From contig JASLQF010000044.1 in assembly GCA_030744625.1 (NCBI GenBank), forward strand, positions 1-64,000: 64,000 nt of DNA. The letters are read 5' to 3'. The DNA is from Rhodospirillales bacterium. Lineage in GTDB: Bacteria > Pseudomonadota > Alphaproteobacteria > Rhodospirillales > JASLQF01. Position 1 is the stretch's first letter. Each line of letters starts with the position of its first letter. The position numbers and the translations under genes are program-made. A model generated the notes under the pieces. It made no database searches and had not been told where the DNA came from. It was given only the letters and a program-made list of their open reading frames with translations. Shown here one piece after another: positions 37,073 through 61,908 of this stretch.

Positions 37073-37516
37073 ATGTCCAAGAAGATCATGGTCCTCAACG
37101 GACCCAACCTCAACCTGCTGGGCACGCGACAGCCCGACGTGTACGGCGAGGAAACCCTTGCCGACATCGAGGCGGCGTGCGCCGGGCGGGGCACAGCCCT
37201 CGGGCTCGACGTGGATTTCCGCCAGACCAACTCGGAAGGCGAGATGGTCGACGCCATCCAGGAAGCGGGCGCCGCCCACGCCGGGCTCGTCGTCAATGCC
37301 GGGGCCTACACCCATACCTCGGTGGCCGTCCTCGACGCCCTCCTCGCCTGCGAGATGCCGATCATCGAGGTGCACCTTTCCAACATCTACCGACGCGATG
37401 ACTTCCGCCAACACTCTTTCGTCTCCAAGGCGGCGCTGGGCTCCATCTGCGGCCTCGGCGGCCACGGCTACGAGCTCGCCCTCGAGGCCTTGGCGCGGCT
37501 GCTCGAGGATAGCTGA
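37073..37516 (+). CDS. aroQ: 3-dehydroquinate dehydratase, type II
   Basis: Shikimate pathway enzyme. 147 residues, the usual type II size. Visible: LNGPNLNLLGTRQPDVYG (catalytic Tyr), FRQTNSEGEMVDAIQEA, VNAGAYTHTSVAV, EVHLSNIYRRDDFRQHSF. The gene precedes accB-accC as in many alphaproteobacteria, but here a 119-bp gap with a strong operator-like palindrome separates them. Confidence 0.96.
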   Translation: MSKKIMVLNGPNLNLLGTRQPDVYGEETLADIEAACAGRGTALGLDVDFRQTNSEGEMVDAIQEAGAAHAGLVVNAGAYTHTSVAVLDALLACEMPIIEVHLSNIYRRDDFRQHSFVSKAALGSICGLGGHGYELALEALARLLEDS

Positions 37517-37546
37517 AACCACGCCGCCGGCGGCACACCGCCAGAC

Positions 37547-37592
37547 AATCATAATTTGCGTCATTCGCAAATTATGATTGCGTAAAACGCAA
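37547..37592 (+). promoter_or_regulatory. Twin inverted-repeat operators upstream of accBC
   Basis: Site 1 has perfect 14-bp arms AATCATAATTTGCG and CGCAAATTATGATT around TCATT. Site 2 is TTGCG-TAAAA-CGCAA and overlaps site 1 by two bases. Both share the core TTGCG-T-N4-CGCAA, and their centres are 22 bp apart, about two helical turns. A possible -10 (TATGAT) lies within site 1. No T-run follows, so this is not a typical terminator for aroQ. Confidence 0.8.
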
Positions 37593-37635
37593 ATTCCTCT
37601 TGAAAGACGCCGCCTTCCCTGGCAGGATGGTAACC

Positions 37636-38307
37636 ATGAAGCTCTCCGAATACCTTGCCGATAGGGCAATTACCGCATCCGACCTGGCCAGGGAGATCAA
37701 CCGCTCGGTTTCGACGGTGACGCGCATCGTTAACGGCGAAAGCAAACCGGACTGGTCGACCATGGCCCGCATCGACGACGCCACCGACGGCGCCGTCAAG
37801 CCCAACGATTTCCTACCGGCGGCGGGAGAACCGGCGCCAGAGGCCGAAACCGTGGGTTCCGTGGATGCCGATCTGGTGCGCGAGCTGGCCCGCCTGCTCG
37901 ACGAGACCGGCCTCTCCGAGATCGAATACTCGAGGGGCGAATGGCGGGTACGCGTCGCCAAGGCGCCGCCTGCCGCCGCCGCCGTCCCGGCCTCCGCTCT
38001 CGCGGTCCAGGAGCCGGAGGCGGCGCCTACCGAGGCGGCGGCGGACCCGACGGGCGAGGACTTCGCGGGGCATCCCGGCGTCATCACGTCGCCCATGGTC
38101 GGCGTCGTCTATACCTCGGAAAGCCCCGACACGCCGCCCTTCGTCAAGGTCGGCGACACGGTGACGGAGGGTCAGACCCTGTTGCTGATCGAGGCCATGA
38201 AGGTATTCAACCCGATCGTCGCTCCGCGCCCCGGCAAGGTGGCCCGCATCCTGGTCGGTAGTGGCGTGCCGGTCGAATTCGGCGAACCCCTGATCGTCGT
38301 CGAATAG
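37636..38307 (+). CDS. accB: HTH-AccB fusion: biotin carboxyl carrier protein with N-terminal DNA-binding domain
   Basis: Product of 223 residues. Residues 1-62 form a Cro/XRE-like helix-turn-helix (MKLSEYLADRAITASDLARE, then SVSTVTRIVNG, then a segment ending AVKPNDFLP). Residues from about 73 are a normal AccB: VDADLVRELARLLDETGLSE, an Ala/Pro linker, and a biotinyl domain with Lys189 in IEAMKVF. AccB carries carboxybiotin in acetyl-CoA carboxylase. The frame is open throughout with no stop between the parts. GTG codons 37852 and 37861 could start a short AccB. The twin operators lie 44-89 bp upstream, suggesting autoregulation. Confidence 0.9.
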   Translation: MKLSEYLADRAITASDLAREINRSVSTVTRIVNGESKPDWSTMARIDDATDGAVKPNDFLPAAGEPAPEAETVGSVDADLVRELARLLDETGLSEIEYSRGEWRVRVAKAPPAAAAVPASALAVQEPEAAPTEAAADPTGEDFAGHPGVITSPMVGVVYTSESPDTPPFVKVGDTVTEGQTLLLIEAMKVFNPIVAPRPGKVARILVGSGVPVEFGEPLIVVE

Positions 38308-38328: not shown

Positions 38329-39668
<1,340 letters not shown>

Positions 39669-39672
<4 letters not shown>

Positions 39673-61838: not shown

Positions 61839-61875
61839 AAAAAAAAGGCGCCCGGCGGAGATTCCGCCGGGCGCC
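61839..61875 (-). terminator. Intrinsic terminator of the phasin gene
   Basis: GGCGCCCGGCGGA and TCCGCCGGGCGCC form a 13-bp perfect stem with a three-base loop. On the minus strand eight T follow it. It lies 33 bp after the phasin stop. Confidence 0.95.
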
Positions 61876-61908
61876 TTTCAAGGCTTGCCCCTGATGGGGG
61901 GGAGTCGA

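Follow-up and report, generated by a model that had tools for sequence, protein, structure and literature searches.

The window analysed here, by which we mean the whole 64,000-nucleotide stretch from a Rhodospirillales bacterium (contig JASLQF010000044.1), carries between aroQ and accC a gene whose product joins a DNA-binding domain to AccB, the biotin carboxyl carrier protein (BCCP) of acetyl-CoA carboxylase. This gene is a single uninterrupted open reading frame of 223 codons plus stop on the plus strand, 37636-38307, with a further in-frame ATG at 37627, and its product (HTH-AccB below) consists of a five-helix Cro/XRE helix-turn-helix (HTH) domain at residues 1-60, a linker, and then a complete BCCP with its biotinyl Lys189. 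The features of the locus are the following; the promoter elements were placed with the help of the HTH-SucA genes described further on.

37073..37516, plus strand: aroQ, the upstream neighbour, as is usual in relatives
37556..37570, plus strand: putative operator 1, TTGCG-TCATT-CGCAA, TTGCGTCATTCGCAA, core of the 37546-37580 inverted repeat
37578..37592, plus strand: putative operator 2, TTGCG-TAAAA-CGCAA, TTGCGTAAAACGCAA, placed as the distal operator of the HTH-SucA promoters
37600..37605, plus strand: probable -35, TTGAAA, by eye against the HTH-SucA promoters and unreported by a consensus scan
37623..37628, plus strand: probable -10, CAGGAT, by eye from the same alignment; weak (3/6 to consensus), with a 17-nt spacer
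37636..38307, plus strand: HTH-AccB fusion gene, 223 aa plus stop
37636..37815, plus strand: Cro/XRE HTH domain, residues 1-60, from Pfam HTH_26, AlphaFold2 and XRE-type structural neighbours
37708..37731, plus strand: recognition helix, residues 25-32, VSTVTRIV, the third helix of the AlphaFold2 model
37816..37863, plus strand: linker, residues 61-76, from the end of the HTH to where fusion-free AccBs align
37852..37854, plus strand: possible internal GTG start (Val73), from sequence inspection, with GAGG at 37840-37843, eight nt before it
37864..38304, plus strand: complete AccB/BCCP, residues 77-223, from TIGR00531 above its cutoff
38200..38202, plus strand: codon of the biotinyl lysine, Lys189 in EAMK, from the product sequence
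38329..39672, plus strand: accC, the downstream partner subunit, identified from its product sequence

Both halves of the product are recognised by curated profiles. Pfam HTH_26 matches residues 2-49 (E 6e-8; 33.2 bits, past the gathering score of 22), or with E 1e-8 when run alone, the NCBIfam BCCP equivalog TIGR00531 matches residues 81-223 with 118.6 bits (cutoff 115.2), and Biotin_lipoyl matches residues 149-221. The lysine of the EAMK motif, the predicted biotinylation site, is residue 189, and the BCCP part is 49-59% identical over the aligned region to that of nine relatives from the order; the equivalog score, the EAMK lysine and the adjoining accC mark it as AccB. AlphaFold2, given residues 1-63 and 25 aligned natural domains, predicts five helices (residues 3-10, 14-21, 25-32, 40-49 and 56-59) with a mean pLDDT of 95; a full-length model was poor (mean pLDDT 59) and was set aside. 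Foldseek relates the domain to XRE domains (DdrO, SinR, HigA, YdaS/8co2) with a probability of 1.00, with E-values, for a domain of this length, of no better than 0.02, and its sequence profile matches phage Cro/YdaS structures (PDB 8co2, 8c7k) at 4e-8. Profile score above the curated cutoff and five-helix predicted fold thus both place the N-terminal part among XRE-type HTH domains, and DNA-binding domain and enzyme subunit lie in one polypeptide. The sequence-only reading of this DNA, which had proposed an HTH joined directly and in one frame to a complete AccB with its Lys189, is borne out by HTH_26, by TIGR00531 and by the uninterrupted frame: the structure prediction and profile search that it suggested assign the N-terminal part to a known HTH family, and the available sequence has neither stop nor frameshift between the parts. 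At third codon positions the HTH part has a G+C of 0.81, close to the 0.87 of the accB part. A short, HTH-free AccB could, speculatively, arise from the internal GTG at 37852.

The same reading had suggested a search for this fusion in related genomes, and a search of 317 genomes from the order gave no further AccB matching the HTH part. No second AccB fusion was found in partial samples of the class (385 genomes) and the phylum (399 genomes), in a scan of genome contigs or among plasmids. HTH-AccB is known from one metagenome-assembled genome (MAG), 87.8% complete and 4.2% contaminated, and the genomes compared included no other member of its own family. The AccBs of order relatives have a normal short N-terminus that begins just before the BCCP helix. 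The gap between aroQ and accB is 119 bp here versus a median of 11.5 bp in 50 fusion-free relatives, none of which has a TTGCG palindrome in that region (0/50). Since the relatives without the HTH are also without the long gap and the palindromes, the domain and the upstream sites appear together. The genome has a second BCCP-like gene (G000:C29:59330-59809), which adjoins a pyruvate/oxaloacetate-carboxylase-like (carboxyltransferase-like) gene; it is 37-41% identical and, by this context, no spare AccB, and the gene (L129) is probably part of another biotin carboxylase.

Between the aroQ stop (37516) and accB lie two TTGCG-N5-CGCAA palindromes, 22 bp apart from start to start, and a perfect 15+5+15 inverted repeat at 37546-37580 encloses the first of them. 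A narrower motif common to both, TTGCGTNNNNCGCAA, occurs without mismatch only there in the 3.2-Mb genome. One-mismatch copies of it are genome-wide no commoner than those of a reversed-pattern control, which gives no sign of a wider regulon; the best of them, C33:21845, was rejected as a further target, being without a convincing target gene. About 3.5 TTGCG-N5-CGCAA sites are expected in the genome by base composition, and a lone site would accordingly mean little; two adjacent palindromes at the accB promoter, in a segment of 37.7% G+C within a window of 65% G+C, are hard to put down to chance. A consensus promoter scan upstream of accB found nothing at its threshold. Transcription from the CAGGAT -10 would probably begin at or near the accB ATG. 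Seven nt separate the end of the second putative operator from the probable -35 downstream of it, and neither operator falls within the core promoter. Operators just upstream had also been proposed from the sequence: the two palindromes are indeed present, but at 44-80 nt from the ATG they precede the likeliest core promoter and are not on it. A second perfect 15+5+15 inverted repeat elsewhere in the window (61844-61878), G+C-rich and ending in TTT, is likely a terminator.

In other Alphaproteobacteria, the HTH subfamily found on AccB is attached to six or more further, unrelated proteins, for the most part metabolic enzymes. With the HTH part alone as query against the 385 class genomes, the first matches were HTH fusions to a NarJ/TorD-like protein (57% identity) and to SucA (52%), followed by fusions to glutamine synthetase, RibBA, MeaB and a carbamoyltransferase, and small stand-alone Cro-like genes were also among the matches; the fusion partners were confirmed by Pfam. 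A profile that combined fused and stand-alone members added RibBA fusions from several families; its matches at E <= 1e-10 in the phylum sample of 399 genomes were confined to Alphaproteobacteria. The alignment behind this profile is enriched for fusions, and by its design it favours them. No such bias affects the search with the AccB domain as single query, which still placed the NarJ and SucA fusions at the top; the fusions are therefore recurrent. An N-terminal HTH is carried by RibBA in several alphaproteobacterial families (L152, L166, L167, L203-L208), by glutamine-synthetase-like enzymes (L150, L154, L155, L173, L175, L176), where upstream sites are less clear, by the MeaB GTPase in small (1.4 Mb) genomes (L159, L170, L171), and by a carbamoyltransferase (L174, 523-1680, minus strand) that Pfam assigns to the aspartate/ornithine family and that sequence motifs alone suggest to be PyrB. 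The NarJ/TorD-like chaperone (L148, 1501-2295) comes from one genome only. The stand-alone relatives are small Cro-like genes, several of them adjoining another XRE gene, and phage matches to the domain are weak.

One of these relatives is HTH-SucA (L215-L229, relatives of G636), in which SucA, the 2-oxoglutarate dehydrogenase E1, has an N-terminal Cro-like HTH that shares with the AccB domain the SVSTVTR helix. In all 15 HTH-SucA loci (15/15, one genus) a TTGCC-N5-GGCAA palindrome stops 9 to 11 nt short of the ATG, with ten invariant arm positions and a spacer that takes several forms. Of 14 sucA loci that give no full HTH match, some of them from the same genus, none has this palindrome in the 2-3 kb examined (0/14); SucA of other members of that genus and family has no HTH. 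A second site, GTGCC-N5-GGCAA, precedes a TTGAC -35 by 6-7 nt at every HTH-SucA locus. The proximal HTH-SucA site falls between -35 and -10, where AccB has none; relative to the -35, putative operator 2 of accB takes the place of the distal HTH-SucA site and putative operator 1 lies 22 bp further up. One genome (G1065, 6% contamination) has two HTH-SucA copies, on C25 and C173, by duplication or contamination.

A perfect 5-bp-arm N5 palindrome is present within 150 nt upstream of 28 of the 46 HTH-family members (18/46 have none), compared with 9.1 expected and a maximum of 15 in 20 shuffles; counts at other odd spacers are raised as well, since one longer palindrome is scored at more than one spacing. 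Of the 5 members whose recognition helix reads VSTV[T/S]R, 4 have TTGC-N7-GCAA upstream (AccB, SucA and a pair of near-identical stand-alone genes), against 0 of the 41 others, an association with p about 3e-5, or 3e-4 if the two near-identical members are counted once, under a helix grouping set up post hoc on data already inspected. At the exception, the NarJ fusion G540, a TTGC-type N5 site is recognisable by eye but imperfect (TTGCA-AGCCA-TGCAT). Members with other helices have other arms: TAACC-N5-GGTTA directly before the start of the MeaB fusions, TTACC-N5-GGTAA between TTGACA and TAATAT at the L174 carbamoyltransferase, and TTCAG-N5-CTGAA at -66 to -68 from the ATG of the RibBA fusions L204, L205 and L207, which come from different families. 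The candidate operator half-sites follow the recognition helix.

On these comparisons we strongly infer that the HTH domain of AccB binds the two accB palindromes, and we assign a probability of about 0.72 to the reading that this BCCP with a Cro-like HTH binds the two 15-bp sites and controls its own accBC, with negative feedback as the likeliest sign. The Cro-like domain would dimerise on the two palindromes in the aroQ-accB gap, each with TTGCG/CGCAA arms around a 5-nt spacer, bound HTH-AccB would control transcription of its own operon, and the amount of carrier protein would in this way set the expression of both the carrier and the biotin carboxylase. AccB exceeding its partners would bind and lower accBC transcription, and its capture by AccC or by the full enzyme, or its biotinylation, would free the sites. 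AccB assembles with AccC, so that free versus assembled carrier would make an attractive switch, as would biotinylation. The earlier proposal that AccB represses its own operon fares well by comparison as regards self-binding and less well as regards repression, given two sites upstream of the probable -35. Repression nevertheless seems to us the favoured sign in view of the core-promoter sites of the homologues, the Cro-like ancestry of the domain and the E. coli precedent discussed below; in HTH-SucA and in the L174 carbamoyltransferase a site lies between -35 and -10, an arrangement that would favour repression.

Because both AccB sites precede the probable -35 (37600) and the core promoter itself has none, HTH-AccB might instead activate, binding the same two sites (centred near -51 and -73) and aiding RNA polymerase at a weak promoter. 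We hold this only tentatively: it would suit the weak accB -10 and the -66 to -68 position of the site in the three RibBA fusions, but the closest homologue that is conserved, HTH-SucA, has a further site within its core promoter, and Cro-like relatives are in general repressors. A domain captured from a small phage or mobile-element regulator might also have become a leftover that folds and no longer regulates, with the palindromes as relic operators. The small stand-alone Cro-like relatives beside other XRE genes, the weak phage matches, the restriction of HTH-AccB to one genome and the low G+C of the operator segment would all fit such a history, which we nonetheless think unlikely: the domain is complete and open, both putative operators are perfect, the homologous HTH-SucA module retains domain and arms across a genus, and 60 added residues that served no purpose on an essential protein should tend to decay.

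It is highly improbable that the inverted repeats form an RNA hairpin or terminator between aroQ and accB that has nothing to do with the HTH. The 15-bp perfect stem with its 5-nt loop has the look of one, and one site scored as terminator-like, but there is no noteworthy Rfam match, any T-run is slight or absent, HTH-family promoters share the 5-bp-arm N5 geometry, and the HTH-SucA loci keep the arms fixed while the spacer varies. That an error of assembly or binning joined a regulator gene to accB we find scarcely credible, even in a MAG with some contamination, in the face of an in-frame junction within the usual aroQ-accB-accC order, a complete BCCP, matching operators and the similar third-position G+C of the two parts.

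BirA, PutA and NadR are enzymes with a DNA-binding domain that regulate transcription. They resemble HTH-AccB in combining a metabolic function and a DNA-binding domain in one polypeptide, and differ in the DNA-binding families and targets involved; HTH-AccB and its relatives have a small Cro-like module on unrelated proteins, whose own genes are the apparent targets. Phage Cro/YdaS-type and XRE repressors share with HTH-AccB the fold, the size and palindromic operators (candidates here) beside their own promoter, but stand alone with no enzyme subunit attached. With HTH-SucA, HTH-AccB has in common the HTH subfamily, helix, TTGC-type half-sites, N5 spacing and a site 6-7 nt upstream of the -35; HTH-SucA differs in its enzyme, its extra core-promoter site and its conservation in many genomes, near-complete ones among them. 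The nearest functional parallel is E. coli AccB, a BCCP subunit proposed to autoregulate accBC through its N-terminal part (James & Cronan 2004, as cited in PMC3896788 and PMC11602165); according to those two articles, accB overexpression lowers accBC transcription and AccB is without a recognised DNA-binding motif, whereas HTH-AccB has an added Cro-like HTH and candidate operators. The sequence-only reading knew of no described example; our literature search, mostly of open-access texts, likewise found no account of an HTH-BCCP fusion or of these HTH-enzyme fusions, but AccB autoregulation as such had already been proposed for E. coli.

With AccB autoregulation already proposed and enzymes with DNA-binding domains already known, a recurrent cassette would be a more novel claim than HTH-AccB itself. 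We would give even odds to the view that the Cro-like HTH and its N5 operators form a plug-in autoregulation cassette, placed repeatedly at the N-terminus of unrelated, mostly metabolic proteins in Alphaproteobacteria: AccB, SucA, RibBA, glutamine synthetase, MeaB, a carbamoyltransferase and a NarJ/TorD-like chaperone. Each fused protein would then become sensor and regulator of its own gene, with half-sites that follow its recognition helix, and HTH-AccB would be the fatty-acid-synthesis case. To our knowledge, the control of bacterial acetyl-CoA carboxylase levels is poorly understood, and an explicit DNA-binding domain with candidate sites brings a direct coupling of carrier level to transcription within reach of a test on a single construct. 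More widely, the pattern hints at a general way for a biosynthetic enzyme to gain control of itself, through a 60-residue domain and a short upstream segment.
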